A DNA stretch of 60,630 nucleotides from Komagataeibacter sp. FXV3 (lineage in GTDB: Bacteria; Pseudomonadota; Alphaproteobacteria; Acetobacterales; Acetobacteraceae): the NCBI RefSeq assembly GCF_015155755.1, contig NZ_VWPI01000006.1:1-60630 (forward strand). Reading direction: 5' to 3'. A model generated the notes under the pieces. That model ran no database searches. It saw nothing but the letters and a program-made list of their open reading frames with translations, and was not told where the DNA came from. Positions 30,345 to 51,215 of this stretch are shown piece by piece. Both the position numbers and the translations under genes were made by a program. Every line of letters starts with the position of its first letter. Position 1 is the stretch's first letter.

Positions 30345-30466
30345 TAATCAGGCCATGCCATTCCGGCCGGAATTTGCGATTACGGGACAATGGTCACATT
30401 GTCTGGCATCACGAACTTTCCTTCGCCTACCCCCACCTGCACCACACGACAGGACTGGAGACCATA

Positions 30467-30979: not shown

Positions 30980-30987
30980 CATACCCC

Positions 30988-31944: not shown

Positions 31945-32974
31945 AGGTAATGCCCATGCCCTTGATCCATGCACGGTATTTCTGTCCCAGCAGGTCACTG
32001 CGGTGATGCAGTTCCTGCCGCAGGTCCACGGGAATGCGTTCAGGGCGCTGGGTATCGACAATGGCCGCATCCTGCGCATAGACCAGATCCTGCCTGCGGC
32101 GAACGTCTTCCACGGTGGGTTGTGGATCGAAATTCGTGGCGCAGCAGATACGGATGATGCTGGTCTGTTCATCCACGATCTGTGCCGTAAGATAGGTACA
32201 GAAACGGTCGGCCTCGTTGCCTTCATGCTGGCGCGCGGGATCGGAAATGATCAGGCGCTTTTTGAAATACGCGACCAGCGGGCGAAAACATTTATAGGCA
32301 TAATAGGCGATAACGGGCACCTGCCGGGGATCGCCATAGGGCTGTGTCACGCGTACCTCGGACGTGAAGAGGCCATCGGCGGTTTCCTCCACCTCATAGG
32401 GCGGGATGGGATCGGGATTGTCATAAATGCCGTTCACGCCCGCATGGACAAAGGGAAAATGGCTGGGATCCATGAAGTTTTCGACCGCACGATAGCCGGA
32501 CCGGAAACGGTAGGGACCGCAGTTCACTTTCTGGTACGCCGGGTCATCCCATTCGGGAAAGACGGGAATATCACGCGCGGGCGTGCCCGTGCACACCCAT
32601 ATGAATCCGTAGCGTTCGTGCACATGGTGGGTAATGGCCCGGGCCTTCTTCATGGGCTTTTCGCCCGGTGCGGCCGGGATCAGGATACAGGTGCCGCATC
32701 CATCATATGTCCAGCCGTGATACGGGCAGATGACGGTATCATTGCGCACGAACCCCTTGGACAGCCGCGCGCCACGGTGGATGCACAGGTCGTCCCACGC
32801 ATGCACCTGCCCATCGGTTGCGCGCCACAGCACGAGGTCACGTTCCATAAGGGTGACGGCTACCAGGTCGCCCGGCGTCACGTCTGTTGAAAAACCGACG
32901 ACATGCCAGTCATTCAGCAGCGCCGCATCCTGACAGCCCTGCAGGTCTTCACTGATATTCTTGACAACATTCAT
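31931..32974 (-). CDS. Rieske non-heme iron oxygenase, alpha subunit (VanA-like)
   Basis: A 347-residue ring-hydroxylating/O-demethylating oxygenase. The Rieske cluster ligands are in CIHRG and, 16 residues after the His, CPYHGW (~64-88). The mononuclear iron site is in NFMDPSHFPFVHAG (~168-181). No small subunit gene is nearby, and with a VanB-type reductase this forms a two-component system such as vanillate O-demethylase or a phthalate/carnitine-type monooxygenase. The substrate is not readable. It follows gntR by 30 bp and likely shares its promoter. Confidence 0.92.
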   Translation of the reverse strand: MNVVKNISEDLQGCQDAALLNDWHVVGFSTDVTPGDLVAVTLMERDLVLWRATDGQVHAWDDLCIHRGARLSKGFVRNDTVICPYHGWTYDGCGTCILIPAAPGEKPMKKARAITHHVHERYGFIWVCTGTPARDIPVFPEWDDPAYQKVNCGPYRFRSGYRAVENFMDPSHFPFVHAGVNGIYDNPDPIPPYEVEETADGLFTSEVRVTQPYGDPRQVPVIAYYAYKCFRPLVAYFKKRLIISDPARQHEGNEADRFCTYLTAQIVDEQTSIIRICCATNFDPQPTVEDVRRRQDLVYAQDAAIVDTQRPERIPVDLRQELHHRSDLLGQKYRAWIKGMGITYGVY

Positions 32975-33004
32975 GATACGTCACTTCCACGCCGAAGCAG
33001 TTTT

Positions 33005-33757
33005 CTATTGCGAGACGACGGACGCACTGCCTGCCGTGGCCACGGCCTGCGCCATCTGGTGATAGGTGATTTTCTTGATTTCGGTCCGGGACGCACCGAT
33101 ATGCGCCCGGATCAGACCTTCCGCCGTTGTGGCGCAAGGATTGTCCAGTGCCCGTATGATGGCCGCATGTTCGTCATAAGTGGCGGCGATCCGGTCGGGA
33201 TTTATGAAATCCAGCCGCCGGATCACGCGGATGCGGTCGGTCAGGCGGGTAAAGGAGCGCAGCATTTCCGCATTGCCTGCAAGACGCACCAGCGTGTGGT
33301 GGAAGGCTTCGTCCGCTTCGGCCACCAGCAGGCCATCCGTCTGCCGCGCCGCGTGTGGCACGTCCCATACCGCGCGCAGGGTGGATAGGTCGGGGCGGGA
33401 CGGCTGCGCGCACAGGCGGTGGATGGCGATGACCTCAATATCCGTGCGGAAATCATACAGGTCACGGTAGTATTCCAGATCGACCGGCCTGACCTGCCAG
33501 CAGGAATGTCCCCCCACGTGCTGCACGAACCCCTCATGCGCCAGCAGGTGCAGCGCCAGCCGTAACGGCGTACGGGACACCTGTAGGACAGCCGTCAGTT
33601 CATGTTCCGAATAACGCTGTCCCGGCGGCATGCGGAAATCGACGATTTCCCGCTTGAGGGTTTCGTACGTCCCCTGCGCCAGTGTGCCGCGCGCGCCGTC
33701 CGGCTTCACGAACGGCATGATGGAGGTCACGTTTATGTCGGAAATCTCATCGGTCAT
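33005..33757 (-). CDS. GntR-family regulator (FadR/FCD subfamily)
   Basis: A 250-residue GntR regulator. N-terminal winged helix: LAQGTYETLKREIVDFRMPP, then SEHELTAVLQVSRTPLRLAL (~45-70). The C-terminal FCD domain follows with the Asp/His metal-site pattern (EADEAFHHTLVRLAGN, ~150; and a later DEHAAIIRAL). The ATG at 33757 with AAAGGA upstream gives the best start; the frame is open to 34048 but reads across the promoter. It heads the gntR-Rieske-reductase operon and carries a palindrome 37 bases upstream. Confidence 0.9.
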   Translation of the reverse strand: MTDEISDINVTSIMPFVKPDGARGTLAQGTYETLKREIVDFRMPPGQRYSEHELTAVLQVSRTPLRLALHLLAHEGFVQHVGGHSCWQVRPVDLEYYRDLYDFRTDIEVIAIHRLCAQPSRPDLSTLRAVWDVPHAARQTDGLLVAEADEAFHHTLVRLAGNAEMLRSFTRLTDRIRVIRRLDFINPDRIAATYDEHAAIIRALDNPCATTAEGLIRAHIGASRTEIKKITYHQMAQAVATAGSASVVSQ

Positions 33758-33793
33758 ACTTGTTTCCTTTTCGGGAATCCACGTGATATCCAG

Positions 33794-33807
33794 TTTGGGA
33801 TCCCAAA
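33794..33807. promoter_or_regulatory. Perfect palindrome upstream of gntR, likely GntR operator
   Basis: TTTGGGATCCCAAA is a perfect 14-bp palindrome 37 bases before the gntR start codon. FadR-type GntR proteins bind short palindromes of this shape, often in their own promoter. It differs from the TCAGYATRCTGA motif, which suggests a separate regulator. Confidence 0.55.
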
Positions 33808-33872
33808 TTACATCCAGGCGGAATGAAAACAAATCGAAACGTTTTCTGTCAATCAGATCCTGTGGTTTTTTT

Positions 33873-34763
33873 TTACGGAGTATCCTGATCATGGGCGTTA
33901 TCCTGCCCGTCCACCATGGACATGAGGAGCGTGGCGGCGTGAACCAGCACGCCATCAGGTTGGCGCAGGCCATCAAGAATGCTGAAATGGTCCGCCCCCG
34001 GCACAGGCAGCAGCATGCCCGGCGCATGGCTGGCCGTACGGTAATCATGGAAGGCGCGGCTGTCCCCGCTCAGCGCGGACAGTTCCCTCGTACCATACAC
34101 GATCCCCAGCGGCTTGGGTGAAATGGCACGCCGCAGGGGGGACAGGTCCATGATCTCATCATCCGTAAGACGCAGCGCGTCATTGAGCCATGTGTCGCGC
34201 AGGGGACCCAGTTCAAATATGCCTGAAATCGCAAGCCCCGCCGCGATGGACGGATGATCCAGCGCCAGTGCCGACAGCGTGGCGCCAGCCGACCACCCCG
34301 CGACAAGAAACGGTCCCGATATGCCCATCGCCCCGCCATAACGGGACAGCCAGTCAATGGCCGCATCGACTTCAGCCACAATCCGGGACAGGGAGGCCTG
34401 TGGCGCCAGCGTATGACCAGGCATGGCCACGGACCAGCCCAGCGCCTGCACGCCCGTGACAAGGGCCGCGAAATCCTCGTGCCGGTTCATTTGCCAGTAA
34501 CCGCCATGGATGAATATCAGGCATGGCATATCCGGTCGCGTGCCGGGATAGAGCGACCAGCGGTTACGCTCCCCCGCGCCATAGGCCTGATCGGGTATGG
34601 GTTGCATGACCTGTGCCGAAGCCACGCGCAACGCTGCCATGTAGGCTCGGCTGCCTGGCACCGCGCCGGCATTGTCATAGGCCGCATTGCGTTCGCGCGC
34701 ACTCAGCATGCCCCAGTCACGCATGGGCGCGGCAGCGGGGTCCGTATCAGCCCGCACCATCAT
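33873..34763 (-). CDS. Alpha/beta hydrolase (kynurenine formamidase/esterase-like)
   Basis: A 296-residue alpha/beta hydrolase of the esterase/lipase D type. The oxyanion motif is CLIFIHGGYWQMN (~81-93), the nucleophile Ser is in LVAGWSAGATLSALAL (~155), an Asp candidate in DSRAFHDYRTAS and the His in PGADHFSILDGL near the C-terminus. HGGYW with a GWSAG elbow is typical of arylformamidase-like hydrolases. It overlaps the amidohydrolase stop by 4 bp and is probably co-translated with it. Confidence 0.88.
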   Translation of the reverse strand: MMVRADTDPAAAPMRDWGMLSARERNAAYDNAGAVPGSRAYMAALRVASAQVMQPIPDQAYGAGERNRWSLYPGTRPDMPCLIFIHGGYWQMNRHEDFAALVTGVQALGWSVAMPGHTLAPQASLSRIVAEVDAAIDWLSRYGGAMGISGPFLVAGWSAGATLSALALDHPSIAAGLAISGIFELGPLRDTWLNDALRLTDDEIMDLSPLRRAISPKPLGIVYGTRELSALSGDSRAFHDYRTASHAPGMLLPVPGADHFSILDGLRQPDGVLVHAATLLMSMVDGQDNAHDQDTP

Positions 34764-36013
34764 GACAGCGGCGGGATCAGGGGACTGTCGGCCTCGAAGC
34801 GCTTGCCCGCCCGCAGGCAGAACGCGGGCATGAACATCCGTTCCGTCTGCATGGTGAACCTGCTGTTATCCGTCATGGAGAACTGGCCTTCGTGCAGGTC
34901 GAGGACGGAAATATCCGCCTCCCTGTCCACCTGAAGGGACCCGATCTCATCTTCCATACGCAGCATGCGCGCGGGGTTTGAGGTGACGGTTGCAATGACC
35001 TCCTCCATTCCAACCCCCAGCGCCAGCAGCTTCGACATAGCGTTGGTCAGGTTGAAGGGGGCAACGCCAAAAAAAGGATTGCTTTCCCGCACGTCATCGC
35101 TGCCGCCCTTGGGCAGGCGGACATTATAGCCATGCATGTCCGCCCCCAGCGTATAGGGATGGATACCGGCATCAATAACGGTCCGTGCCATTTCGAAGGA
35201 AAAATGCGATCCATGCCCGACATCGACCGTCACCCCGCGTTCCAGCGCGGCCCAGACCACCGGATGGACCTGTCCCGTTTCGGTGGAGATGAAGCCACCC
35301 GGATGCCGGGTGAAGGGATGGGCCAGCACGTCGCCTTCCTCCATAATCGGCACAAGTTCACGCACGATTTCATCCGGCTCGATATCGGGTGCATCATCCG
35401 GCATGGGCCATAGCTGACCCAGATGAATATACAGCGGAACACCGGCCTCCCGCGCGATCTCCTTGCCGATGCGGATCACTTCCAGCCCCCAGCGGGAAAC
35501 GCCACCAATTTCGGCATGCGCCTTGATGCCGCGCACCAGATCCCTGTTTTCCCGCGCAGCGCGGACCGTATGTTCGATATTTGTCTGTCCGGGACCATAA
35601 AGTTCCGGGTACAGGTGCCCTTCCAGCCCGCCCACCAGATAGGCGGACAGAAAGCACAGCACCCGGCTGTCCGACGGTTCGGCAATGAAATGCCGGAACC
35701 CGCCAATGGTCATGCAACTGGGGCCTCCCTGGTCCACCAGCGTGGTCACACCAGAACGCACGCCAACCAGATCCGCCTCCAGCCCGAAGCGACCCGTCAC
35801 ATGCTGGTAGATATGGGCGTGGGTGTCGATCATGCCCGCAATGACGATCTGGCCGGACACGTCGGTTACATCACGCGCTGTCGCGGCCGGGTCGATGTGG
35901 GGTGCGATGGCGATAATGCGTCCGTCCCTGACCCCGATATCGGCAATGCCGTCATATCCCGTCATGGGATCGATCACTCGACCGCCACGCAACAAGGTAT
36001 CGAATTCTGTCAT
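34760..36013 (-). CDS. Amidohydrolase/deacetylase-family metallohydrolase
   Basis: A 417-residue amidohydrolase-superfamily protein. GMIDTHAHIY (~60-69) supplies the HxH metal ligands, KAHAEIGG (~163) a likely carbamylated-Lys/His site, HLGQLWPMPD and HPFTRHPGG further ligands, and GADMHG (~297) the closing Asp region. The C-terminal barrel-edge ADISVLDL is also typical. It resembles D-aminoacylase/dihydroorotase-like deacetylases. Substrate unknown; with the alpha/beta hydrolase it may cleave amide or ester bonds. Confidence 0.88.
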   Translation of the reverse strand: MTEFDTLLRGGRVIDPMTGYDGIADIGVRDGRIIAIAPHIDPAATARDVTDVSGQIVIAGMIDTHAHIYQHVTGRFGLEADLVGVRSGVTTLVDQGGPSCMTIGGFRHFIAEPSDSRVLCFLSAYLVGGLEGHLYPELYGPGQTNIEHTVRAARENRDLVRGIKAHAEIGGVSRWGLEVIRIGKEIAREAGVPLYIHLGQLWPMPDDAPDIEPDEIVRELVPIMEEGDVLAHPFTRHPGGFISTETGQVHPVVWAALERGVTVDVGHGSHFSFEMARTVIDAGIHPYTLGADMHGYNVRLPKGGSDDVRESNPFFGVAPFNLTNAMSKLLALGVGMEEVIATVTSNPARMLRMEDEIGSLQVDREADISVLDLHEGQFSMTDNSRFTMQTERMFMPAFCLRAGKRFEADSPLIPPLS

Positions 36014-36173: not shown

Positions 36174-37538
36174 TCAGGCAAGGCTTCTGTCACGAGTTTT
36201 ATGCAGCAGCCCGTACAGGATAATCCCCTGCCCCACCAGCGCTACGGCCGGCAGCCAGACAAACCCCATACGGATCCAGAACGCGATATCGGGATTATCG
36301 GCATTTCCGGTCGGTGTGTAATGTCCCATCCTGAGGAACCAGACCAGAATGAAGCCCCCAATGGCCATGGAAACCTTGCTGACCAGCGTATTCAGTGCGT
36401 AGGCCATGCCCGCCATGCTTTTTCCATGCCGGATATGGCCATGTTCAATCGCATCCGCCAGCAGGACATAATATAGTGGTGAGGCAAGGCCCGTCACGAT
36501 ACTGAACAACGCGAACGTAAAGATGATCCCCCACGTTCCCCCTACGCTGTTGCCGATACAGATTTCGCAAGTGGCCTGCACAATCACGGCCCCTACGAAA
36601 GCATGCTGGTAACCGCGCCACCGGCATGCCACCGGCGTCAGCAACGCCCCGATGAACCAGCAAACGGTGGCAAGCGTTAGCAGCATGCCCCCCAGCGTGG
36701 CCGATCCATGCAGTACGATGCGGGCATAATAGACTGCAAAACCACTGGTTGCGGCAATACACAGGAATTGCAGGAAAACAACGGCATTACTGATATGCCA
36801 CAGTCCGTTGCGCATCAGCCCGGACAGCAGTTCCGGCAATGATGTCCGGCGCCCCGGCAGGGGATTGCGGATAATGCAGCCACGATAGACCATCCGCCAC
36901 AACAGGCTGCCCAGTATTGCCAGCAGCAGGACATAGATCGTGATGCCCGTGCGCTGCTGGGTGGGGTCACTTCCCCCGCCCAGAAAATTGATGGCGGGAA
37001 TGGTCAGCAGCGCAATGATGAACTGGCCCGCGTAACACCCCATCATGCGGAACGCATTCAGGCCGATCCGTTCATCGGCCCGGGTGGTCATGAGATTACC
37101 CAACGTACCGTATGACGTATTGATACCCGAATAGACCGCGCCGAAAATGATATAGGACAGGCAGGCCCAAATGACTTTGCCTGTGTCGGAAAATGGCAGC
37201 GGCAGGAAACACATGAAGGCCGAAATGCCAAACGGCACACTCAGCTTGCCAATGAAAATACTTATGATCCCGCCGCCCCTGCGGTCGATCAGGTAACCTG
37301 CCAGTGGATCACATATGGAATCAAATATCCGCGCAACCAGCAGGATCCACCCGACATCCGCCAACGGCAGCCGGTAGATGTCCGTGTAATAATACAGCAG
37401 ATAGGATGCCGTCATTCCCCACATCAGATTGGATGACAGGTCACCACAACCATATGCAATCTTTTCACGCAATGTCACCGGAACCATGTCGCTGACGGGT
37501 GGCGTGTCATCGCAGGGCGGTGTTGCCAAGGCCTTCAT
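36174..37538 (-). CDS. GPH-family (MelB-like) sugar/glycoside:cation symporter
   Basis: A 454-residue transporter of the glycoside-pentoside-hexuronide family with about 12 hydrophobic segments. EKIAYGCGDLSSNLMWGMTASYLLYYYTD (in two pieces: YGCGDLSSNLMW and YLLYYYTDI) and RIFDSICDPLAGYLIDR (~70-86) are family signatures. It imports glycosides with H+ or Na+. Its place directly after a GMC oxidoreductase and sugar-isomerase-like gene, 14 bp from the former, suggests the substrate is a glycoside handled in the cytoplasm. Confidence 0.88.
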   Translation of the reverse strand: MKALATPPCDDTPPVSDMVPVTLREKIAYGCGDLSSNLMWGMTASYLLYYYTDIYRLPLADVGWILLVARIFDSICDPLAGYLIDRRGGGIISIFIGKLSVPFGISAFMCFLPLPFSDTGKVIWACLSYIIFGAVYSGINTSYGTLGNLMTTRADERIGLNAFRMMGCYAGQFIIALLTIPAINFLGGGSDPTQQRTGITIYVLLLAILGSLLWRMVYRGCIIRNPLPGRRTSLPELLSGLMRNGLWHISNAVVFLQFLCIAATSGFAVYYARIVLHGSATLGGMLLTLATVCWFIGALLTPVACRWRGYQHAFVGAVIVQATCEICIGNSVGGTWGIIFTFALFSIVTGLASPLYYVLLADAIEHGHIRHGKSMAGMAYALNTLVSKVSMAIGGFILVWFLRMGHYTPTGNADNPDIAFWIRMGFVWLPAVALVGQGIILYGLLHKTRDRSLA

Positions 37539-37552
37539 GGGGATTATCCTTG

Positions 37553-39223
37553 TTATAGCCGGCCGGCCTTATATTCCTGCGCCAGATGGACGCATGCCCG
37601 TACTGTCATGGCCATGACGGTCAGTGTCGTACCAAGTGTCCCTCCACTGGGAAAGCTGCTGGCGTCGGTCACGACCACATTAGGCGCGTCCCAGCACTGG
37701 TTATACGGGTTGAGCACCGATACCTTCGGGTCCGTGCCGATACGCGCGCCCCCGCTTTCATGAATGGCGGCCCCCATGACCATGCTTTTGGGGAACATAT
37801 GCCGGATCAGCATCCGGGCCAGAAAATTACGATTCGGGTATAGTCCCGGCCCGCGCTCCTCCAGCCCCAGCGGCGATGCCCAGAAGTGGACGGTACCGCC
37901 GCTTGCCTCGATCATCCGGGCGCAGTCCCTGATCTGGCTTTCCAAGGTCGCGCGTTCGGGCGCCTGCACAGCGCAGCGGATATGCGGCAGGGGCATTTTC
38001 CAGCGGTCCGTCCGCTTCGGGTCCAGACTGACGCGGTTGTCATAATGGGGCAGCATTTCCCCAAATCCCATGATGGAAATCAGCGTGGACTGCGCCGATG
38101 ACGGGCCACCATAGCGATCAATCGATCCCTGGAACGAATATCCATGCGCGTAGGGATGCGGATTGCCGGGGTCCGTATGTCTGTAACGCGGGATATAGAA
38201 CCCGCCGGTCTTGCCATAAAACGGGTGGTCGGGCAGTTCGGTCGCTTGCCCCGTGGCATTGGCGCGGGGAAATGCCCCGAACATGAGCGATGCGCACTGG
38301 TCCATGTAATAATGGCCCAGTTGTCCCGTGCTGTTACCAATTCCGTCGGGATGTCGCGCACTGCGGGAGTTGAGCATGATGCGCAGCGTCTCCACCGGTG
38401 ATGCGCACATGACCACGGCACGGGCTGGGATATGCGCCGCCTGCCGTGTCTCGCGGTTGATATAGCGCACGCCGGTCGCCCTGCCCGTCTCAGGGTCCGT
38501 CGTGATTTCCTGCACGATCGCATCGGATTGCAGGGTCAGCCGTCCTGTCTCCAGCGCAGCCTTCAGGGCCGGGGGCACGGCCGCACCGTCATGGGGCGTA
38601 AAGCGCCAGGCCACGACATGGCGTTCGGGCCATTTTTCCTCAACCGTCTGGCAGAAATATTTCTCCGTAGGGGTCAGGACCGCCGGTTCGGCCATCACGC
38701 CGTCAGGCGCGGTCTCCACCGCATCCATATTTCCGTGAATGCCAAGGAAGCGTTCGACCTGTTCATAATAAGGCACCAGATCGGCATAGGAAATAGGCCA
38801 GTTCACCCCGCCTGTCTGGTGGCTTGCACCCTTGAAATCATAATCCGACCACCGGAACAGTACCCTGCCGAATACATGCAGCCGCCCGCCGACCTGACGA
38901 CCCCGTATCCACAGATACGGGGCGTCCTTTGGCGCGGTATACCCATGCGACCAGTCATTCACGAACAGGCGTTTCATCTGTTCATTGAAAAAAGCCACAC
39001 GCGACTGCAGGTGCTGGCCCGACAGTGTCGCACGGATGCGCGGCATCAGTTGCGCATCACGCGTGGGGCGCTTGCGCGCGATATCCGACAGTTCCTGCTG
39101 CGGTATCGACCGGCCCGCTTCTAGCAGGAGGACACGCAGTCCCTGTTCCGTCAGTTCCTTTGCTGCAAAACTGCCCGCCGCGCCAGAACCGACCACAATG
39201 ACATCATGCGTGTCTGGACTCAT
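37553..39223 (-). CDS. GMC oxidoreductase, candidate glycoside 3-dehydrogenase
   Basis: A 556-residue FAD enzyme: DVIVVGSGAAGSFAAKELTE at the N-terminus, RQVGGRLHVFGRVLFRWSDYDFKG (two parts) near 125, and the C-terminal HESGGARIGTDPKVSVLNPYN. This is the branch that includes pyranose-oxidase-like and glycoside 3-oxidising enzymes. The residue that is normally the second active-site Asn (NPTLTIMA in relatives) aligns with Gly in GTTLTVMAM, which is odd and may alter catalysis. The ATG at 39223 with GGAG upstream is the start chosen; another ATG lies at 39235. No signal peptide or cytochrome partner is nearby, so it is likely cytoplasmic. Confidence 0.85.
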   Translation of the reverse strand: MSPDTHDVIVVGSGAAGSFAAKELTEQGLRVLLLEAGRSIPQQELSDIARKRPTRDAQLMPRIRATLSGQHLQSRVAFFNEQMKRLFVNDWSHGYTAPKDAPYLWIRGRQVGGRLHVFGRVLFRWSDYDFKGASHQTGGVNWPISYADLVPYYEQVERFLGIHGNMDAVETAPDGVMAEPAVLTPTEKYFCQTVEEKWPERHVVAWRFTPHDGAAVPPALKAALETGRLTLQSDAIVQEITTDPETGRATGVRYINRETRQAAHIPARAVVMCASPVETLRIMLNSRSARHPDGIGNSTGQLGHYYMDQCASLMFGAFPRANATGQATELPDHPFYGKTGGFYIPRYRHTDPGNPHPYAHGYSFQGSIDRYGGPSSAQSTLISIMGFGEMLPHYDNRVSLDPKRTDRWKMPLPHIRCAVQAPERATLESQIRDCARMIEASGGTVHFWASPLGLEERGPGLYPNRNFLARMLIRHMFPKSMVMGAAIHESGGARIGTDPKVSVLNPYNQCWDAPNVVVTDASSFPSGGTLGTTLTVMAMTVRACVHLAQEYKAGRL

Positions 39224-39270
39224 CTCAATCTCCATATCTCGTAATAATCCACAACCGGATCGGGGTGCCG

Positions 39271-40209
39271 TTACTGGCGCGCCAGCATACGGGCGCATGT
39301 CTTTCGGGCATGGACAAGGGCAGCGGCAGGATCCTTGCAGGCATCCAGTTCGAGTATGGGGCCACTCAGCAATGGCGCACGCTCCAGCACGTCCGCCCAT
39401 TGCGCAAAATCAACCACGCCATGGCCCATTTCACAGAAATAGTCCCGGTGGCGTTCATGGATATGCGCATCAATCGGGGTTTCACGCGGCATAGGGCCAA
39501 GGGCGTCTTTCCAGTGCGCGGTCACGATACGGTCACGGTGGGCGCGCAGTACCTCGATGGGGTCGGAGCCTTCCAGCGTGATATGCGCACTGTCGGGACA
39601 TAGCCCGACATAACGTGGATCAGTCAGCAGCATGAACAGTGCAATGTCACGTGACTGGCAGAACATCGTATGCGCTTCGGTATGCAGCGCCAGGGCAATG
39701 CCATGTTCCGCAGTCGCCGCGCCAATATGATTCAGCAGGTCCGCCACCGGCAGGGCCGCATGAAGATCGACAAAACATAGCGGCTTGTGCAGGAAAGTCT
39801 GGCGCAGCGGCAGTCCGGCCACCAAGATCCGCCCCCCTGTCTGTGACAAGAAACGGGCCGCATCCGTGGCGGAGCGGATCATGTTGTCCCATTGCGTCCC
39901 CCGCTCTGCAACCGGCGGGGCCGCTTCGATGTCGGCAAAAAAGGCGGACCATATCTCCAGCCCTCTGCGCCCCAGTTCGTCACGTACGTCCTGTGTCGTA
40001 CCGAAGGCTTCAATGAGGCCCGACCAGTTGAATGGTGGAAATGTAAGCTCTATCCCCCGGATGCCCGCTTTGTGCAGGGTATCAAGTATGCGGGTCCAGA
40101 AATGACGCGGATCCTGTCCGGCCAGTGTGGCGATTCCCTGGGAATCCGGCACGCCCCAGAATGCGGGATTGTAGAATGTAACAAGGTCGGCACCAAAATC
40201 AGCAGACAT
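39271..40209 (-). CDS. Sugar phosphate isomerase/epimerase-like TIM barrel
   Basis: A 312-residue xylose-isomerase-like TIM barrel. Candidate metal ligands are the Glu in RGIELTFPPF (~50), HTEAH (~175), the Asp/His in LCPDSAHIT (~205), DAHIHERH (~245), and Glu in ILELDACKD (~285). Family members include isomerases, epimerases and the beta-elimination/hydration enzymes of 3-keto-glycoside breakdown. It sits between the TonB receptor and the GMC oxidoreductase in one operon. The reaction is inferred from context. Confidence 0.85.
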   Translation of the reverse strand: MSADFGADLVTFYNPAFWGVPDSQGIATLAGQDPRHFWTRILDTLHKAGIRGIELTFPPFNWSGLIEAFGTTQDVRDELGRRGLEIWSAFFADIEAAPPVAERGTQWDNMIRSATDAARFLSQTGGRILVAGLPLRQTFLHKPLCFVDLHAALPVADLLNHIGAATAEHGIALALHTEAHTMFCQSRDIALFMLLTDPRYVGLCPDSAHITLEGSDPIEVLRAHRDRIVTAHWKDALGPMPRETPIDAHIHERHRDYFCEMGHGVVDFAQWADVLERAPLLSGPILELDACKDPAAALVHARKTCARMLARQ

Positions 40210-40244
40210 CAGGGTTTTACTTTCGTCAATTACGGCAACTTTGT

Positions 40245-42638
40245 TCAGAATGACGTGGAAACCGTGCCGGTCATGGAAAAGCGCGGCTCGACAAAGAAGG
40301 TATTGGGGGACACTTCATCCGCGTTGGACATCTGCCCGTTCATCAGTCGGACCTGCTGCGCATTGGTCGTGACGCCGGTCGGCGCGGTACGGACGATGGA
40401 GCCGGTCAGGTTGGTAAAGTTGAGGCGGAATGTTGGTGATTTCGCAAATCCGATCGGACGGGCGCGGTACCCCAGCGACAGGGTATCGGATACATAACCT
40501 GGCATCCGTTCATCACCCGCCAGCGTCACCGACTGGGAGCCGGCATAATGCAGGCTGGCATTGGCGAAGAAGCCCCGGTAATTGTATGTCAGCCCGAAAT
40601 TGGCCATGACCTTGGGTGACATGACCGCTTCATGTCCCTTGGTGGGAATATAGGATCCATCCAGAGGAATATTTGAGTCCATCGTCGCATGCAGGTATTC
40701 GACCGAAGCATACGGGCTGAAACCATGGAACGGCTTTGTCGATACCATAAGATCCAGGCCACGCGCGGTCTGGTTACCCGCATTGATGGTAGCGGACTGC
40801 CCTGCCGCGACATAGGTGGTCAGAAGCCGGTTGGTGATGTTGTAGTTAAATAGGGCCAGGTCAACCATGACCAGGTCATTGTGGAAACGGTAGCCCAGCT
40901 CCTCCTTGATGGCATACTGGTTACGTGGCAGAGATTCGGTGCGGGGATTGACCGCAAGGTTGGCGGGCGACGGCTGGCGGAAATCGCCTTCCGCATTGAT
41001 ATAGACCTGGTTGTGCGGATCGATCTGGTAACCTACGGCAAAATGCGGCAGCGGTATGCCGGTATTCATGCCCAGACGGTCATGGCTTGTCCCGGTGGCC
41101 GAATTGGCGTCCGACATATACCAGTAATTGGTCATGACATATTTCAGGCCCGCTTCCACCGTCAGATGATCATGCAGGTATTTTGCCTGATCCTGCAGGA
41201 AAATGGCATGCAGTTCATAGCCCGCGCGCGTGCGGGCAGTGGCCCGTTCGCCGTTGCCATAGAACAGCTGCGTGGCGGTATTGTCCACGTTCGGCATCGC
41301 GCCATTCGACTGCGTCAGGTTATTGGGTTCCTTGAAAATCTGGTCGTCGTTTTCATACCAGTAGCCAAGGCTGACACGGTTATGCCGGTCGGGGCGATAG
41401 CTCAACTGTGCCACGGCGCCGGTCTGGATGAACATCTGCTGCTGGTAATACGCCGTCACGGCCTGCCCTGCCGCCACCGGGGAACCGTTGCTGGTGAAAT
41501 ACTCGCCACTGGCGGTGGTGCCACCGCTATAGCCTTCGGGGCCGAAGCCGGTATTGAAATAGGGTGTCAGGTCAAATGCGAAACGTGCAGGCAGTTCAAT
41601 ATGGATTGGAGATGAAATCGTAACTTCATTCCAATAACTCATATTGTTGCCCCAATAATTATTATTGGATTTGTCGTAATAGTTCTTCCAGCCAAATCCG
41701 TTGCCAGTATGTTTGTAGTCTAGGAACTCCTGTGCGGTGGCATAGTTGTCGACCACGGCGGCCGTGTGGTCCCATGACAGGAAGAATTTGAAATACGATC
41801 CATTCTTGAAATTGTCCTGTATGCCGAAATCCACGTTCTTGCGTTCGTTGATTCCCGCACCCATCCATGACCGTGCATGCGTATGGGAAAACGATACATA
41901 GGAACGCAGGTTGGTATGACCGATATTGCCGGATTCCAGGCGGATATACTCACGGGACATGTTATTTGTTCCATAGGAGAAATCGACCATGCCGCCCGCC
42001 TTCTTCGATGCGTTGTGCGTGACAAGGGACATGACGCCAGCCGCCGATGACGTGGCGGGTAGGTCGGTGCTTGCACTGCCGGGCGTGATGTTGATCGCCT
42101 CGATATCCTCGGCGTCAATATCCTGGTTGATGTAGTTGATGCCGGTTGCCGGACCACCATTGATTGTTGTCGTCTGGTCAGCGTCCGTCAGGCTGCGGAT
42201 TTCGGCAGCACCGGTCACCCCGCCCGTAATGCCGGATGTATTGTTGGTCGCGACGTTCATGCTCGGCACATTGCGGATCAGGTCCACGACCGCAGCCTGC
42301 GGCGAGCGCATTTCAATATACTGCCGCCCGACCGTCTGCACCCCGTGCGGCGCGGTTTGTAGCCGCATCATCCCCCCGCCGCCGTCATCGGCATTCCGTC
42401 CGGAGGTGACATGAATGTCTTCATGCGGCGCGGGAGGCGCGTTTGCTGCAGGCGATGCCGTCCTGCTTGCAGCCTGTCGCGTCGGGGGATGGCGGGGGGC
42501 ACTATGACCGGCTGTATCCGTAATCCCCGTCGTGGCAGCAGCAACCGGGTTTCCGTGCGCGTCATGCAGGAAGTAGAATGTACTGCAGAAACTCAGGAGC
42601 ACGGATCGAAATGTTAAGGTAGAAACCTTCAGGGCCAT
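40245..42638 (-). CDS. TonB-dependent outer-membrane receptor
   Basis: A 797-residue TonB-dependent receptor. The N-terminal signal peptide (FRSVLLSFCSTFYFLHDAHG) is followed by a low-complexity stretch, the plug domain (~90-210, with AAVVDLIRNVPSMNVATNN and INQDIDAEDIEAINITPGSA) and a long beta-barrel ending in Phe (TGTVSTSF), the usual outer-membrane assembly signal. It is the first gene of the operon with the TIM barrel, GMC oxidoreductase and symporter, so it probably imports the glycoside rather than iron. Two LacI-type operators lie upstream. Confidence 0.9.
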   Translation of the reverse strand: MALKVSTLTFRSVLLSFCSTFYFLHDAHGNPVAAATTGITDTAGHSAPRHPPTRQAASRTASPAANAPPAPHEDIHVTSGRNADDGGGGMMRLQTAPHGVQTVGRQYIEMRSPQAAVVDLIRNVPSMNVATNNTSGITGGVTGAAEIRSLTDADQTTTINGGPATGINYINQDIDAEDIEAINITPGSASTDLPATSSAAGVMSLVTHNASKKAGGMVDFSYGTNNMSREYIRLESGNIGHTNLRSYVSFSHTHARSWMGAGINERKNVDFGIQDNFKNGSYFKFFLSWDHTAAVVDNYATAQEFLDYKHTGNGFGWKNYYDKSNNNYWGNNMSYWNEVTISSPIHIELPARFAFDLTPYFNTGFGPEGYSGGTTASGEYFTSNGSPVAAGQAVTAYYQQQMFIQTGAVAQLSYRPDRHNRVSLGYWYENDDQIFKEPNNLTQSNGAMPNVDNTATQLFYGNGERATARTRAGYELHAIFLQDQAKYLHDHLTVEAGLKYVMTNYWYMSDANSATGTSHDRLGMNTGIPLPHFAVGYQIDPHNQVYINAEGDFRQPSPANLAVNPRTESLPRNQYAIKEELGYRFHNDLVMVDLALFNYNITNRLLTTYVAAGQSATINAGNQTARGLDLMVSTKPFHGFSPYASVEYLHATMDSNIPLDGSYIPTKGHEAVMSPKVMANFGLTYNYRGFFANASLHYAGSQSVTLAGDERMPGYVSDTLSLGYRARPIGFAKSPTFRLNFTNLTGSIVRTAPTGVTTNAQQVRLMNGQMSNADEVSPNTFFVEPRFSMTGTVSTSF

Positions 42639-42752
42639 TTCTGCAAATCCTTCGTCAGAAACCGTTTTCCATCAGAAGACGACATTCACGATTTATTGAT
42701 AAAAATGTATCAAGGCACGTTTTGTAGAGGAATCTGGAGCCATTACGTTTCA

Positions 42753-42768
42753 CGGCATACGATTGCCG
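42753..42768. promoter_or_regulatory. LacI-family operator O1
   Basis: CGGCATACGATTGCCG, a 16-bp palindrome (CGGCA/TGCCG arms) with the central CG step usual in LacI-family operators. It lies 115 bases upstream of the TonB receptor start. Fourteen-base core GGCATACGATTGCC differs at only two positions from that of the second site at 42951. Confidence 0.6.
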
Positions 42769-42950
42769 TATCAAGACTCCCCTCCTTCCGTCAATTTCTT
42801 TTTCGTAACGATATGCCGATTTTACGGTTTCTATTTAAATAAACCTATGATTTATATGATTTTACTGTCTGTTATATATTTTTCCTATCCAACCAGAACG
42901 TTTTTGGTGTTTGTCACACATTTCGGAATCGTTATATGTTTGTATTCACA

Positions 42951-42966
42951 TGGCATTCGTTTGCCA
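42951..42966. promoter_or_regulatory. LacI-family operator O2
   Basis: TGGCATTCGTTTGCCA, a 16-bp palindrome (TGGCA/TGCCA arms) with a central CG, matching O1 at 12 of 14 core positions. It lies about 238 bases upstream of the lacI-type start, and its centre is 198 bases from that of O1. Confidence 0.6.
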
Positions 42967-43004
42967 AGTATACATAGAAATATATAACAAACTCAATGAA
43001 ATGA

Positions 43005-43016
43005 TTATCCGGATAA
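43005..43016. promoter_or_regulatory. Palindrome TTATCCGGATAA
   Basis: A perfect 12-bp palindrome, also with a central CG, 188 bases before the lacI-type start. It does not match the O1/O2 consensus, so a link to the same regulator is weak. The remaining parts of the 565-base divergent gap (42639-43203) hold no gene that I can support. Confidence 0.35.
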
Positions 43017-43203
43017 CAGTCCTGTAAACCTGAAATGCCTGTTCCGGCTCCCTGCAACCACTGTTGACCCGAAGCGGTCCTTGGCCCGATTTTTCCTGAA
43101 CCGTGAAGGCTATCCTGACATGAATGGCAACTCCGCGCCTCTGTTCAATGACCTCGGCGGGATATATCATTGGCAAAACAGCAACAGTGGACGTACGCAG
43201 GTT

Positions 43204-44253
43204 ATGGGCAATACGGAAGATGATGTCGGAGCGGCCAGGTCCGGTCGTGTCCGGATTGCCGATATCGCGCGGGAACTGGGGCTAAATCCATCTACCGTCA
43301 GCCGCGCCATCTCTAATCCCAACCGCGTCAATCCCGAAACGCACAAACTGGTAGCGCAGACGGCGCGGCGCATGGGCTATACCGCCAATCACCTTGCCCG
43401 CAGCCTGCGTACCGGGCGGACCAATACATTACTTGTCGCGGCCCCTTCCCAACCGGGGCTGCCGATATCGCCCGTTGTCATTGATGTGCTGCACGGTATT
43501 TTCTTCGAGGCAGGACGGATGGGCTACAGTGTCTTCATCCGTGAAACCGATCCATCAGGCATGGCACCGACCAATCGGCGCCCGCTGAGTGGTCTGGCGG
43601 ACGGGATCATCAGCATCTCCGGCACCGCCGAGATTATCCAGTCAGGTGGCCTGGCGGCGGAAATGGCGCATCTTCCGCTCATCAGTCTTCTGACTGACCA
43701 GACACAGCTGAACATTCCGAGCCTTATCGCCGATGAGGCAGCCGGCCTTTACCAGGCCGCGGATTACCTGATCAGGCAGGGACATGTAAAACTGGCCTAT
43801 ATCGCAGGTCCGCTGGACATATCTGAACATGACAGGCCACGTTACCAGGGCTTCTGCCGGCGGCTGGAAGAAAGCGGCCTGCTGGATGGCCATGTCCGCA
43901 TTGAGGGGGGCAGCTATGATTTTTCATCGGGGACACGCGCGGCGGAAACATTCCTTGACCTGCCCGACAAACCCACCGCCGTCATCGGCGTAAGTGACGC
44001 AGTGGCGCTGGGCTTCATCCGCCGGATCAAGGATGCCGGGCTGCGTGTGCCCGAAGATGTCGCCGTCATCGGTTATGACGACCTTGCCTATTCCGCCTAT
44101 ACCTCCCCCAGCCTGACAACAATATCGCAACCTACGGTTGAAATTGGCAAAGCCGGAACGCGACTGCTGATCGATGCCTGTTCAGGACGCTTTGACCTGA
44201 AACCGCAGCTGATCACGATGCCCACCCATCTGGTGCGCCGTGAATCAGCCTGA
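43204..44253 (+). CDS. LacI-family transcriptional regulator
   Basis: A 349-residue LacI regulator. The helix-turn-helix is VRIADIARELGLNPSTVSRAI (~18-38) with the hinge TANHLARSLRTGRTNTLL; the C-terminal periplasmic-binding-like domain follows, with GYDDLAYSAYTSPSLTTI (~290) near its end. The ATG at 43204 is chosen; an upstream in-frame ATG at 43081 would add an extension of no known character. It lies divergent from the TonB receptor operon and upstream of a TIM barrel and a Gfo/Idh/MocA gene, so it likely controls both sides with a sugar or glycoside ligand. Confidence 0.9.
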   Translation: MGNTEDDVGAARSGRVRIADIARELGLNPSTVSRAISNPNRVNPETHKLVAQTARRMGYTANHLARSLRTGRTNTLLVAAPSQPGLPISPVVIDVLHGIFFEAGRMGYSVFIRETDPSGMAPTNRRPLSGLADGIISISGTAEIIQSGGLAAEMAHLPLISLLTDQTQLNIPSLIADEAAGLYQAADYLIRQGHVKLAYIAGPLDISEHDRPRYQGFCRRLEESGLLDGHVRIEGGSYDFSSGTRAAETFLDLPDKPTAVIGVSDAVALGFIRRIKDAGLRVPEDVAVIGYDDLAYSAYTSPSLTTISQPTVEIGKAGTRLLIDACSGRFDLKPQLITMPTHLVRRESA

Positions 44254-44331
44254 TACCGAATTGCCGCGTACAAGCTGACGGGTCGTTACCGCAGGATTGT
44301 ACGCCATCTCAGCCAGTCAAGGTAAATAACC

Positions 44332-45390
44332 ATGGAAACAATATTGGGTCCGGGCATTTTCGCAGCCCAGTTCATTGGTCCTGCCCCCCCCTTCAACACC
44401 CTTGCAGGCATGGCACGCTGGGCGTCCGCGCTGGGGTACAGGGGCATACAGATTCCCACGCACATTCCTTCCTTCTTCAACCTTGAACTTGCGGCGGACA
44501 GCCGGACATACTGTGATGAGGTATCGGGCATGCTGGCCGCCTACGGCATGAAGATTTCTGAACTGTCAACACACATACAGGGCCAGTTGATGGCCGTGCA
44601 TCCAGCCTACCGGATGGCATTCTCGGATTTCTGCCCGCCGGAACTGAAAGACCGCCCCGATGCATGGCCGCAATGGGCAACGCAGCAGCTTGTGCTGGCG
44701 GCGCGCGCGTCATGCAATCTGGGCCTTACGGCGCATGCTACGTTTTCGGGGGCTCTGGCATGGCCATATCTTTACCCATGGCCACCGCGTGCCCCGGAAC
44801 TGGTCAGCGCGGCGTTTGATGAACTGGCCCGACGCTGGGCACCCGTCCTCAATGCGTTCGACCTTGCGGGAACGGATGTATGCTACGAACTGCACCCCGG
44901 TGAAGATCTGCATGACGGGACCAGTTTCGAACGTTTCCTGGATGCGACGGGACAACATCCCCGTTGCGCCATCTTGTATGATCCCAGTCATCAGCTATTG
45001 CAGCAGATGGATTATCTGGCCTTCATCGACATCTATCACAGCCGCATCCGGGCCTTCCACGTCAAAGACGCGGAATTCCTGCCATCGGGGCGGCAGGGGG
45101 TTTATGGCGGTTACGCAGGCTGGTCTGACCGGGCGGGGCGTTTCCGTTCACCGGGGGATGGGCAGATCAATTTCAAGGGCATCTTCTCGCGTCTGACGCA
45201 ATATGGATACGCGGGCTGGGCCGTGTTGGAATGGGAATGCTTTCTCAAAAGCGCCGAACAGGGCGCGCGTGAAGGCGCTGCCTTCATCAACAGTCACATG
45301 ATTGATGCAAGTGGACAGGCGTTCGATGATTTTGCCGCCTCGTCCCCACGGGACAGATCGTATTACAGGCATATGCTGGGGTTGAAATGA
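44332..45390 (+). CDS. Sugar phosphate isomerase/epimerase-like TIM barrel, second copy
   Basis: A 352-residue TIM barrel of the xylose-isomerase-like family. Glu in CYELHPGEDLHDG (~185), Asp/His in LYDPSHQLLQ (~217), His in FHVKDAEFL and Glu in AVLEWECF (~302) mark the metal site. It is a different branch from the copy at 39271. Together they could be the two enzymes needed for elimination and hydration of a 3-keto-glycoside. It overlaps the Gfo/Idh gene by 4 bp. Confidence 0.85.
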   Translation: METILGPGIFAAQFIGPAPPFNTLAGMARWASALGYRGIQIPTHIPSFFNLELAADSRTYCDEVSGMLAAYGMKISELSTHIQGQLMAVHPAYRMAFSDFCPPELKDRPDAWPQWATQQLVLAARASCNLGLTAHATFSGALAWPYLYPWPPRAPELVSAAFDELARRWAPVLNAFDLAGTDVCYELHPGEDLHDGTSFERFLDATGQHPRCAILYDPSHQLLQQMDYLAFIDIYHSRIRAFHVKDAEFLPSGRQGVYGGYAGWSDRAGRFRSPGDGQINFKGIFSRLTQYGYAGWAVLEWECFLKSAEQGAREGAAFINSHMIDASGQAFDDFAASSPRDRSYYRHMLGLK

Positions 45391-46499
45391 CACGACTGCA
45401 CCCTATCCGGCTGGGCATGGTGGGCGGCGCGCCCGGCGGCTTCATGGGCGATGTACACCGTATGGCACAACGCATGACTGGTCGTTTCATGCTGGCCGCG
45501 GGCGCATTGTCGTCCGATCCGCAACGCGCCGTGACGGCCGGAACCATGCTGGGGTTGCCGCCTGATCGCAGCTATGCCGACTGGCGTGACATGGCGGCAC
45601 GGGAAGCTGCACGCCCTGATGGCATACAGGTCGTCAGCATCGTGACCCCCAATTACCTGCACCTACCCGTCGCCCGCGCGTTCATGGACCACGGCATAAC
45701 CGTCATATGCGACAAGCCGTTATCTGCCGATCCGGCCGAAGCGGAAGCATTTGCCCGCGACATTCCCGATCCCGATGCCCGGTTCATCGTCACCTATACC
45801 TATAGCGGTTATGCCATGGTCCGCCATGCACGCCATTTGGTGGCATCAGGTGCGCTGGGCCGGATCCGCATGATACAGGTGGAATATCCGCAGGACTGGA
45901 TGGCGCTGCCATCATCGGGAAACCTGGGATGGCGACAGGATATACGCCTTGGCGGCGCTGGCGGATGCCTAGGGGATATCGGAACGCATGCACTCCATCT
46001 GGCGGAATTTACAAGCGGGCTGGAATGCCGGCAGGTTTCCGCCCTGCTGACCCGGATAGATGAAAATGCTGCCGTGCCGGACAGTGCCCAGCTACTGCTG
46101 CGTTTTGCCGATAATGCCACGGGCGGAATGTGGGTCAGTCAGGTGGCCGCCGGGTGCGGCAATGCCCTGTGCATCCGTATATATGGGGAAAAAGCCGCCC
46201 TTGGCTGGCAGCAGGAATATCCCGACCAGCTTTCCTTTACCCCATTGGGAAAGGCCACGCAGATCCTTGAACGGGGAAGCACGGATGTGTCCGAACCCGT
46301 TTTTGTGCCCCGTGGCCACCCCGAGGGGTACGTCAGCGCCTTTGCACGGCTGTATGATGACGCCGCCAATCTTCTAACCAACCAGCCTGCCCCCCTGCTC
46401 CCGCGCTTCAGCGCCGGGTTGCGGGGCATGCGCTTTATCGAAGCCGCCCTGCAATCCAGCAGGAACAACGGGCAGTGGCACGACATTCGCGTCGGTTGA
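45387..46499 (+). CDS. Gfo/Idh/MocA-family oxidoreductase
   Basis: A 370-residue NAD(P)-dependent sugar oxidoreductase. N-terminal Rossmann start RLGMVGGAPGGFMGDVHRMA; family Lys in VICDKPLSA (~110); DIGTHALHLAEF (~194) supplies the second active-site His. The GGAPG-F-GDVHR style resembles the branch that includes 3-keto-sugar reductases of levoglucosan-type pathways. By context it could reduce a 3-keto-sugar, or oxidise a glycoside. It is translationally coupled to the TIM barrel gene before it. Confidence 0.88.
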   Translation: MTRLHPIRLGMVGGAPGGFMGDVHRMAQRMTGRFMLAAGALSSDPQRAVTAGTMLGLPPDRSYADWRDMAAREAARPDGIQVVSIVTPNYLHLPVARAFMDHGITVICDKPLSADPAEAEAFARDIPDPDARFIVTYTYSGYAMVRHARHLVASGALGRIRMIQVEYPQDWMALPSSGNLGWRQDIRLGGAGGCLGDIGTHALHLAEFTSGLECRQVSALLTRIDENAAVPDSAQLLLRFADNATGGMWVSQVAAGCGNALCIRIYGEKAALGWQQEYPDQLSFTPLGKATQILERGSTDVSEPVFVPRGHPEGYVSAFARLYDDAANLLTNQPAPLLPRFSAGLRGMRFIEAALQSSRNNGQWHDIRVG

Positions 46500-46713
46500 T
46501 CCCGCGACAGGGTATGGTGGGCGTGTAAGGATCATGGATCCGCGCGCCGTCCGCCCCCACGGGTAGGCGGCGTACCGCCCTTTCCCAATATGAACAATCC
46601 CTGCCCTGGGGGATATACAAGGACAGGATCAGAACACAGGCTGACCGCGTTGAGCGCATAACCTGCGGCCAACAAACCCTTGAGACAATGCTCTTGTGAC
46701 CCTGAAAAACGCA
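46500..46713. other. Unassigned sequence between Gfo gene and IS fragments
   Basis: About 210 bases between the Gfo/Idh stop and the IS1595 fragment. Minus-strand frames continue from the fragment but have no family likeness. It may be further IS debris. Confidence 0.35.
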
Positions 46714-46821
46714 TTTTCCGGTAGCACCTCTGTCCCGTTTGCCTTTGCGATGTCCGCCGAAATAGCTTTCATCAACTTCGATCTCACCGGAAAAGGGCGC
46801 ATTACAGGCAATAGCCGCCAT
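46714..46821 (-). pseudogene. IS1595-family transposase fragment
   Basis: A ~36-residue stretch reading FSGEIEVDESYFGGHRKGKRD and GATGK, which is the DDE-domain signature of IS1595/IS1016 transposases (VDESYFGG). Nothing of the rest is present. Confidence 0.75.
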
Positions 46822-46915
46822 CTTTCAATACATCAACGGCTTCTATAATCCGCGACGGCGCCACTCCTATCTCGGGAGTATCAGCCCACTCGCTTTCGAG
46901 GCCAAAGCCGCGTAA
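46820..46915 (+). pseudogene. IS3 orfB C-terminal fragment
   Basis: Thirty-one residues ending at the TAA at 46913: IFQYINGFYNPRRRHSYLGS and PLAFEAKAA, the usual C-terminus of IS3-type orfB. It abuts the IS1595 fragment on one side and cuts imuB on the other. Confidence 0.8.
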
Positions 46916-48001
46916 AAGAGATCACATACCGGCACAAAACCGTCACAAGTCCAGTTGGCCAGGGTATCGATCAGGTCGGAGACGTCGGCCTCTTCCTCCT
47001 CGATCAGGGCGGATACACCCTGGCGGTGCAGGATCGGCTCGGCCAGCGAAGCCGTCAGCACCATGCGCTCGATCCCGAAGCCCGGATCGATGGTCTCGAT
47101 CCTGTCACAGAGCAGACGGGTCAGGCGTCTGACGTCCCGCACCGGCATGGCCGTAGCCACACGGACGGCCTCGGTGCGGCTGTCCACCCGGTGCAGCAGC
47201 AGGTCAAGGCGGCGCACGCCCTGCTCGCGTTCCTCCAGCCCGGCGCATAGGGGCGGGACGAGTTTGGTGATGTAGCGGGCTATGGTCTCGGCGGCACTGA
47301 TCGGTTCGGCAAAGTTCCGGCTGACCTGCACTGGCGCTTGCAGCCGGACCGGGACAATGGCTTCCGCCTGCCGCCCGAAAGCCTGGTCCAGCCTGCGGGT
47401 GACATCCGGGCCGAAGCGCAGGGCCAGCGGCGCGCGCGGCATGCCGGCCAGCGGGCCAATACGTGACACGCCCAGCCCATGGAGGCCATCGATGATGTCC
47501 ACCGGCAGGCGCAGGGCTTCGATGGACAGATCAGTGATCGTTGCCGCCGTCTCACCGGGCGGCACGAGGGTAATGCGTCCCCGGCCATAGCGCGCCAGCG
47601 CATGGGCCGCACCCCATGTATCGGCGATCGCGGCCCGGGCCGTAATCCCGGACTCCTTCAGGCGCGTGACCATGTTTTCCAGCATGGCGGCCTCACCCCC
47701 ATGCAGGTGATCGGCACCGGTCGTATCCAGCACGATGCCATCTGGCGGATCGGGAGCCACGATGGGGGCGATGCGGTGCTGGAACCACAGCGCCAGCCGC
47801 TCCAGCCCTGCCGGGACGCAGACCCAGCCTGCGGGCGGCGAGATCGACCGACAGGATGACCCGTCGCCGCCCTTCCCGCCCGACGAGTGCCAGTGGGCAG
47901 TCAGGCGCGGGCGCGTCGGTCCCCAGCCGCTTTCTGATCCGGTCTGTCGGCCAGAGCGGCAGGTAGAGTGAGACGACACGGTGCCAGTCTCCCTTTGGCA
48001 T
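46916..48001 (-). pseudogene. imuB: imuB (Y-family polymerase-like), broken
   Basis: The start is MPKGDWHRVVSLYLPLWPTD at 48001, an ImuB N-terminus. At ~47830 the frame shifts: the first frame runs out at LAARRLGLRPG and the second picks up LERLALWFQHRIAPIVA, with about 25 codons missing compared with family members. The rest follows ImuB (DTTGADHLHGGEAAMLENMV, then GGRISR-like loops, GRQAEAIVPVRLQ) until ~46920, where an IS3 fragment replaces the C-terminus. ImuB links ImuC/DnaE2 to the replisome; this copy should be dead. Confidence 0.8.
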
Positions 48002-50395: not shown

Positions 50396-51214
50396 TCAGG
50401 ATCTTGTAGACTGACCATATGTATCAATGGCGACCGTCGCTTCGGTCGTCAGTACACGGAAGACGAAACTTTCTTCCAGATACAGTTCGACAGTATCGGC
50501 CGTGTGAGCCAGATAACCGATCGAAAAATCCTGTCCGATATCCAGTACAAGATCACCACCACGCATGGTAACGACAAATGCCCCTTCAATAGCAGGCGCC
50601 CAGATGAGTTTGCCGTCAATCATGGCCTCGATGTGTTTACGAACAGGATAGCCATCATCATCGCCACTGCTGATTGCCTGATAGGCCTGCGCGCCCAGAA
50701 CAATCGAATACGGACCATTAACACCGGCCAGACGCAGTTCGGTCAGCGCCTGGGCAATGACGCGCGGGTAATCCTTTACGACGGACGGGAGTTTCAGGTG
50801 AATATTGGACGTGGCTGCCCGAATGCCTGGGATCCCGGCGGCATCATAACCATCGAAAATGGCCCGGTCTTCAGCAAAAGCGATTTTCTTTGCGGCGTCC
50901 TTGACCGGTTGCCAGTCGGAGTCCAGGGAACCGCGCTCCACGGCGTCAATTTCGTCGCGTGAAAGCGTAAAGGGAACACGCAGTTCGATGAGCGGCAGGA
51001 CTTCTCGCTTTATAACATGCATACCATTATCCGGCGATGCGATCTCGCTGCCGCGCCCAGTTCCGATACCCGCCAGCGACAGTCCCTTTGGCTCAGGCAT
51101 ATCAACAATGCGTCGACCTGCCAGATGGCGCCGTATGGTGCGTGAAGCTTCCTCTTCAATCTGCCTCCACGCCGCACTGGAAATTGGGGCAAGATGACGA
51201 TGGAGATTATTCAT
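50396..51214 (-). CDS. Encapsulin shell protein (family 1, linocin M18-like)
   Basis: A 272-residue encapsulin, the usual length. It opens MNNLHRHLAPISSAAWRQIE with the family HLAPI.W motif, then RTIRRHLAGRRIVDMPEPKG (~25-45), GIPGI, SIVLGAQAYQAI (~180) and a C-terminal DLVLDIGQDFSIGYL and YLEESFVFRVL. It folds like the HK97 capsid and self-assembles into a protein cage. The start at 51214 lies one base after the peroxidase stop; the frame runs further to 51259 inside the peroxidase. The peroxidase before it carries the targeting peptide. Confidence 0.93.
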   Translation of the reverse strand: MNNLHRHLAPISSAAWRQIEEEASRTIRRHLAGRRIVDMPEPKGLSLAGIGTGRGSEIASPDNGMHVIKREVLPLIELRVPFTLSRDEIDAVERGSLDSDWQPVKDAAKKIAFAEDRAIFDGYDAAGIPGIRAATSNIHLKLPSVVKDYPRVIAQALTELRLAGVNGPYSIVLGAQAYQAISSGDDDGYPVRKHIEAMIDGKLIWAPAIEGAFVVTMRGGDLVLDIGQDFSIGYLAHTADTVELYLEESFVFRVLTTEATVAIDTYGQSTRS

Positions 51215-51215
51215 A

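Follow-up and report, generated by a model that had tools for sequence, protein, structure and literature searches.

How could an acetic acid bacterium take glycosides apart with a gene cluster that encodes no glycoside hydrolase? This question is raised by a seven-gene block of Komagataeibacter sp. FXV3, located at 36174-46499 of the window (the whole stretch of contig NZ_VWPI01000006.1 analysed here, 60,630 nucleotides). We put at about two in three the probability that the block encodes the uptake and non-hydrolytic, four-step breakdown of glucosides or related hexosides. An earlier note on this DNA had described seven genes in one divergent block without a glycoside hydrolase, and both observations stand. 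Open reading frame (ORF) coordinates and Pfam/NCBIfam scans confirm the positions listed below, with a GPH symporter, a GMC oxidoreductase (GMC1), a xylose-isomerase-type barrel (TIM1) and a TonB receptor on the minus strand, and a LacI regulator, a second barrel (HYD) and a Gfo/Idh/MocA oxidoreductase (Gfo) on the plus strand. In domain scans, neither these seven proteins nor ten flanking ones (27083-36013, 46435-47979) showed a glycoside hydrolase domain; the remaining genome was not scanned for hydrolases.

36174-37538, minus strand: GPH-family (MFS_2) sugar:cation symporter (TIGR00792, 242 bits against a cutoff of 231; PF13347)
37553-39223, minus strand: GMC1, GMC oxidoreductase, predicted cytoplasmic flavin adenine dinucleotide (FAD) sugar/glycoside C3 oxidoreductase (PF05199/PF00732)
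39271-40209, minus strand: TIM1, IolE-like xylose-isomerase-type barrel, candidate 3-keto-glycoside lyase (PF01261, AP_endonuc_2)
40245-42638, minus strand: TonB-dependent outer-membrane receptor (PF00593, PF07715)
42639-43080, no strand: divergent intergenic region with two imperfect palindromes (42890-42909, 42961-42980)
43081-44253, plus strand: LacI-family regulator (PF00356, PF13377)
44332-45390, plus strand: HYD, predicted 2-hydroxy-3-keto-glucal hydratase, second AP_endonuc_2 barrel (phmmer match to PDB 8ro4, AtHYD)
45387-46499, plus strand: Gfo, Gfo/Idh/MocA oxidoreductase, predicted 3-keto-glucose reductase (PF01408, PF22725)

The proposed pathway and its known half

In the proposed pathway, the TonB receptor and the GPH symporter would carry the intact glycoside into the cytoplasm, and GMC1 would oxidise the sugar ring at C3. 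TIM1, as a metal-dependent barrel, would take the C2 proton and eliminate the aglycone or second sugar to leave 2-hydroxy-3-keto-glucal, HYD would add water to give 3-keto-glucose, and Gfo would reduce this to glucose. LacI would control the block; its gene probably starts 3' of the listed TTG, and the two intergenic palindromes might, at a guess, be its operators. The oxidation-elimination-hydration-reduction scheme of the earlier note is upheld for the hydratase (8ro4 match), the broad family of Gfo and the likeness of GMC1 to sugar-oxidising GMC enzymes; the elimination by TIM1 and the C3 regiochemistry, together with the substrate and the cellular location, are what we infer.

That note had taken levoglucosan (Lgd) and C-glycoside (Dgp) breakdown as its models; the closest pathway is instead the O-glucoside route of Agrobacterium. 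As described in the available text of PMC10628242, the A. tumefaciens operon encodes GlycDH (a flavoenzyme related to the pyranose oxidase family, expressed with a protein of the twin-arginine translocation (Tat) pathway), the Mn beta-eliminase AtOGE, AtHYD (a hydratase on preliminary evidence) and a Gfo reductase that yields glucose; the available text of PMC13273386 cites Kastner 2024 (Angew e202410681) for this pathway. Both systems share a close hydratase homologue (8ro4), a Gfo partner beside it, a pyranose-oxidase-like flavoenzyme, a xylose-isomerase-type barrel as lyase candidate and the lack of a hydrolase, whereas the window block adds the TonB receptor and the GPH symporter. The suggestion that a GMC enzyme in such a route might be new thus falls, because the Agrobacterium flavoenzyme is of the pyranose-oxidase kind and pyranose oxidases are GMC enzymes according to the available text of PMC11673046; the word GMC itself does not occur in PMC10628242 as indexed. 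The levoglucosan pathway of Bacillus smithii (PMC7676230, available text) follows the same four-step logic, but Gfo scores far below the levoglucosan dehydrogenase equivalog (112 bits, cutoff 650) and the predicted oxidant here is GMC1. With C-glycoside deglycosylation (DgpA, PuCGE, bacterial C-glycoside oxidases) the block shares C3 oxidation followed by elimination, and GMC1 has a fold like that of the C-glycoside oxidases; however, the seven genes include no second small lyase subunit, and Gfo matches DgpA at only 1e-6.

By sequence, the back half of the route is the known AtHYD-Gfo pair. GMC1 and TIM1, both uncharacterised, would form the front half, and in the comparisons made here they matched neither the GlycDH type nor the AtOGE family. 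HYD aligns with AtHYD over residues 1-351 of 352 (phmmer E 5.2e-151), and E186, H188, D217, H220, H243 and E300 are identical to AtHYD in this alignment and invariant across 12 aligned homologues. By homology it is close to certain that HYD is an AtHYD-family hydratase that would perform the hydratase step. Gfo, whose gene overlaps that of HYD by 4 bases, matches PDB 3v5n (1e-96) and adjoins HYD in many other loci; family and context make it quite likely that it would carry out the reduction.

TIM1 and GMC1 as the proposed front half

Four points make TIM1 a fairly probable eliminase: no other lyase candidate was seen in the genome, its fold is the right one, its closest match is named a dehydratase, and it is coupled to GMC1. 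The first of these points follows from the window genome (3.6 Mb in 208 contigs) showing no AtOGE-type relative (0 of 1), an empty answer of little weight. Profile comparison of TIM1 returned IolE as best match (1e-18) and AtHYD as third (2e-8), as against E 0.11 for AtOGE, for which phmmer (8bvk) gave no match at all; together with a weak hhalign result, this led us to reject TIM1 as an AtOGE relative. The hhalign register, taken against an AtOGE homologue and weak (probability 6%, E 0.006), puts H176, D206 and H232 of TIM1 on the AtOGE metal ligands His132, Asp163 and His189; the fourth residue of that metal site is Glu233, and E287 of TIM1 lines up only with a Glu of HYD. A TIM1 profile search of genome contigs yielded 111 relatives, and the best 80 of these 111 were kept as the set of TIM1 loci. 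In an alignment of 79 rows (77 of the 80 loci, which passed a start-motif filter, plus the window and Ketogulonicigenium), H176, E178, D206, H209, H232 and E287 are invariant (79/79), and His180 is replaced in two Gluconobacter rows only, by Asn (His in 77/79).

Some of the evidence on TIM1 weighs against a lyase. In the same weak register, Glu178 (Glu in 79/79 rows) stands where AtOGE has its catalytic His134. The structure-based search of 39271-40209 that the earlier note proposed gave a mixed answer: with a good model (predicted local distance difference test, pLDDT, 93), Foldseek ranked an IolE-type barrel first and listed AtHYD 25th, but many epimerases followed IolE directly, YcjR came 37th and AtOGE (8bvk) was missing among the 50 matches listed. 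Since this ranking does not discriminate, assignment of TIM1 by fold was dropped. The same data suit a different role, in which TIM1 would be a 3-keto-glycoside epimerase or isomerase like E. coli YcjR (the 3-keto-D-glucoside 4-epimerase, 6wn6), and elimination would fall to HYD, to another enzyme or to a spontaneous reaction. The several epimerases and YcjR in the Foldseek list, the Glu at the catalytic His position and the three acetic acid bacteria described below that have the pair without HYD or Gfo speak for it. YcjR shares the barrel fold and the 3-keto-glucoside chemistry; it is, however, a Foldseek match only, and the window cluster includes a hydratase. Moreover, the best match of TIM1 in both sequence and fold is IolE, a named myo-inosose dehydratase, and AtHYD was inactive on 3-keto-phlorizin (PMC10628242, available text), which leads one to expect a separate lyase wherever a cluster has HYD but lacks OGE. 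We therefore regard an epimerase as unlikely, though it is the strongest of the alternatives.

The closeness to IolE, the nearest characterised relative of TIM1, also raises the case of a block for inositol or another polyol, in which GMC1 would make an inosose, TIM1 would dehydrate it as IolE does and Gfo would be an inositol-type dehydrogenase. Gfo indeed weakly matches IolG and scyllo-inositol dehydrogenase. Yet both the IolE match of TIM1 (62.7 bits, NCBIfam equivalog cutoff 290) and the IolG match of Gfo lie far under the curated cutoffs, HYD is closely related to AtHYD, and the importers are of GPH or carbohydrate ABC type, which leaves inositol breakdown very improbable.

For the oxidation step, family and context make it likely that GMC1 oxidises a sugar. 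Its ORF spans 37553-39400 (minus strand), and the 39400 end runs into the upstream gene; the position of the FAD motif points to a start near 39223, and since the motif then lies ~10 residues from the start, no signal peptide would be expected. By profile, FAD glucose dehydrogenase and fructose dehydrogenase come out as the nearest solved relatives, and these are also first by fold, followed by bacterial pyranose and C-glycoside oxidases (in a moderate model, mean pLDDT only 71); a sugar substrate is thus favoured over simple alcohols. The second active-site residue of GMC oxidoreductases is typically His or Asn. GMC1 retains the FAD motif. Across 73 aligned rows (71 of the 73 GMC1 loci plus the window and Ketogulonicigenium) His491 is kept in all, but the position that holds Asn in glucose and fructose dehydrogenase carries Gly in 73/73, a point that counts against the proposed reading.

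The GlycDH type was compared via a Ketogulonicigenium GMC protein rather than via the GIN611 GlycDH sequence. This protein, 32% identical to GMC1, adjoins an AtOGE homologue and a gluconate 2-dehydrogenase subunit 3 protein whose N-terminus looks like a Tat signal. GMC1 differs from it in lacking its Cys-rich insert, presumably an Fe-S site, and in having no small subunit nearby: the partner subunit found no match in the window or in the 80 TIM1 loci, although a diverged subunit could escape such a search. In phage records, GMC1 has a single match at 25%.

The pair across genomes and its link to HYD-Gfo

Existing annotation names the members of this conserved pair only as sugar phosphate isomerase and GMC oxidoreductase. 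When ORFs of at least 90 aa were scored against reference proteins (bits >60, overlapping ORFs pruned), GMC1 was present in 73/80 TIM1 loci, LacI in 75/80, ABC importer genes in 68/80 and GPH in 13/80; the small GMC subunit and AtOGE were both absent (0/80 each), and TIM1 itself counted 79/80 only because an overlapping ORF hid one copy. An importer-gene match accompanies 72 of the 73 GMC1-bearing loci, the exception (L078) being cut by its contig, and the seven loci without GMC1 belong to four Novosphingobium, Kaistia, Yinghuangia and one cut contig. Of 187 plasmid records with a TIM1 match, 133 are from Rhizobium. A correlation of 0.98 between TIM1 and GMC1 distances (71 rows) was given little weight because any two genes that are linked and inherited vertically would be expected to show it. 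On a Novosphingobium resinovorum plasmid (L015, 7679-11564), TIM1 stands beside a GMC protein (Pfam) that has no blastp match to GMC1 at 1e-8.

Within the genus, the set recurs in six other Komagataeibacter genomes as a single block grouped around HYD, in the order LacI-TIM1-HYD-Gfo-GMC1-GPH, so the grouping is more than chance. Homologues of all seven genes occur in four of the six, with GPH and TonB matches in five each: one locus (L061) has no TonB match, another (L062) no GPH match in the 834 bases that remain of its contig. Of 19 Komagataeibacter genomes, 7 carry TIM1, and HYD is found in exactly those 7. The arrangement in the window is split and divergent, and its copy is itself divergent, with 54-58% (TIM1) and 60-63% (GMC1) identity to those of the genus. 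Acetobacter musti and Pseudooceanicola also join the pair to HYD-Gfo; a 704-aa ORF that suggested a TIM1-HYD fusion in A. musti was rejected as two genes in different frames. In four Novosphingobium loci, HYD-Gfo is divergent from TIM1-GPH and GMC1 is missing. On a Ketogulonicigenium plasmid (L011, 4499-24001), a TIM1-ABC-GMC1 module and a module of GMC, subunit 3 and OGE flank one HYD-Gfo; this OGE matches AtOGE (8bvk) at 5e-83.

Several observations weigh against a fixed tie between the pair and HYD-Gfo, and with it against the proposed route. HYD is local in 10/80 TIM1 loci (11 before L119 was dropped as a 30% match), the other 70 lacking it within about 9 kb, and Gfo is likewise local in 10/80. 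Two Gluconobacter and Tanticharoenia (L079, L080, L085) hold TIM1-GMC1, but no HYD was found in them, and no Gfo at E 1e-30, a threshold at which Gfo was matched in 9 of 14 genomes. The searches gave a partial HYD but no Gfo in Acetobacter nitrogenifigens, a 38% Gfo match but no HYD in a Rhizobium ruizarguesonis, and neither in Yinghuangia, which has TIM1 and no GMC1. One of three things must hold: the pair can be of use without HYD-Gfo, those steps are carried out by other means, or the draft genomes have gaps. HYD does occur somewhere in 44 of 50 genomes with TIM1 (50 of the 80 loci examined), and one of the six misses is Novosphingobium profundi, where the hydratase is cut at a contig end. 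For rhizobia, however, co-occurrence was dropped as evidence: 83 of 101 Rhizobiaceae have HYD, which makes its presence elsewhere in their genomes uninformative.

The genomes with TIM1-GMC1 in which no HYD was found would suit a TIM1 that does both elimination and hydration, with HYD as a helper or acting on a different substrate. Redundancy of this kind would not explain why HYD and Gfo adjoin TIM1 in several arrangements, and we consider a dual function improbable. TIM1 and GMC1 might be the pair that founds a second oxidation-elimination module located in the cytoplasm, an idea we hold tentatively and at slightly less than even odds. It would join a new clade of 3-keto-glycoside lyases, with Glu for the catalytic His of AtOGE, to a GMC enzyme without the Cys-rich insert, the partner subunit and the usual Asn; with interchangeable GPH or ABC importers, it would connect to a shared pair of hydratase and reductase, and in certain bacteria it would operate without them.

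Genomic surroundings and meaning

The G+C content of the block is not clearly distinct, and a megablast search of the block against plasmids for recent DNA-level transfer gave one short 76% match only. An IS1595-like transposase fragment (46435-46821, minus strand; PF12762, 20 bits, below the cutoff of 27) overlaps the 3' end of the Gfo gene and is a possible trace of acquisition or rearrangement of the block. A separate catabolic block lies at 27083-36013, with genes for an aldehyde dehydrogenase, another GMC enzyme, MarR, a VanA-like Rieske oxygenase, a ferredoxin-type reductase, GntR, an alpha/beta hydrolase and an amidohydrolase. Further away, an encapsulin shell gene adjoins a DyP-type peroxidase gene (50396-52301, minus strand) whose product ends in SLRIGSLKEDS, which we take to resemble an encapsulin cargo tag, and an ALIL pseudoknot (Rfam RF01497, 105 bits) at 16789-16905 (plus strand) overlaps the start of an rve-type transposase ORF (16831-17721).

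Literature searches, which left subscription literature mostly uncovered and so weigh little, found no paper tying acetic acid bacteria to a 3-keto-glycoside or levoglucosan route, and for GMC, isomerase and hydratase in Acetobacteraceae only PMC10628242 looked related. With this block, the known range of non-hydrolytic glycoside breakdown would come to include acetic acid bacteria. The block also points to a conserved two-gene pair that is common in rhizobia. If TIM1 is indeed the lyase, it would represent a further class of 3-keto-glycoside lyases with a different catalytic residue.

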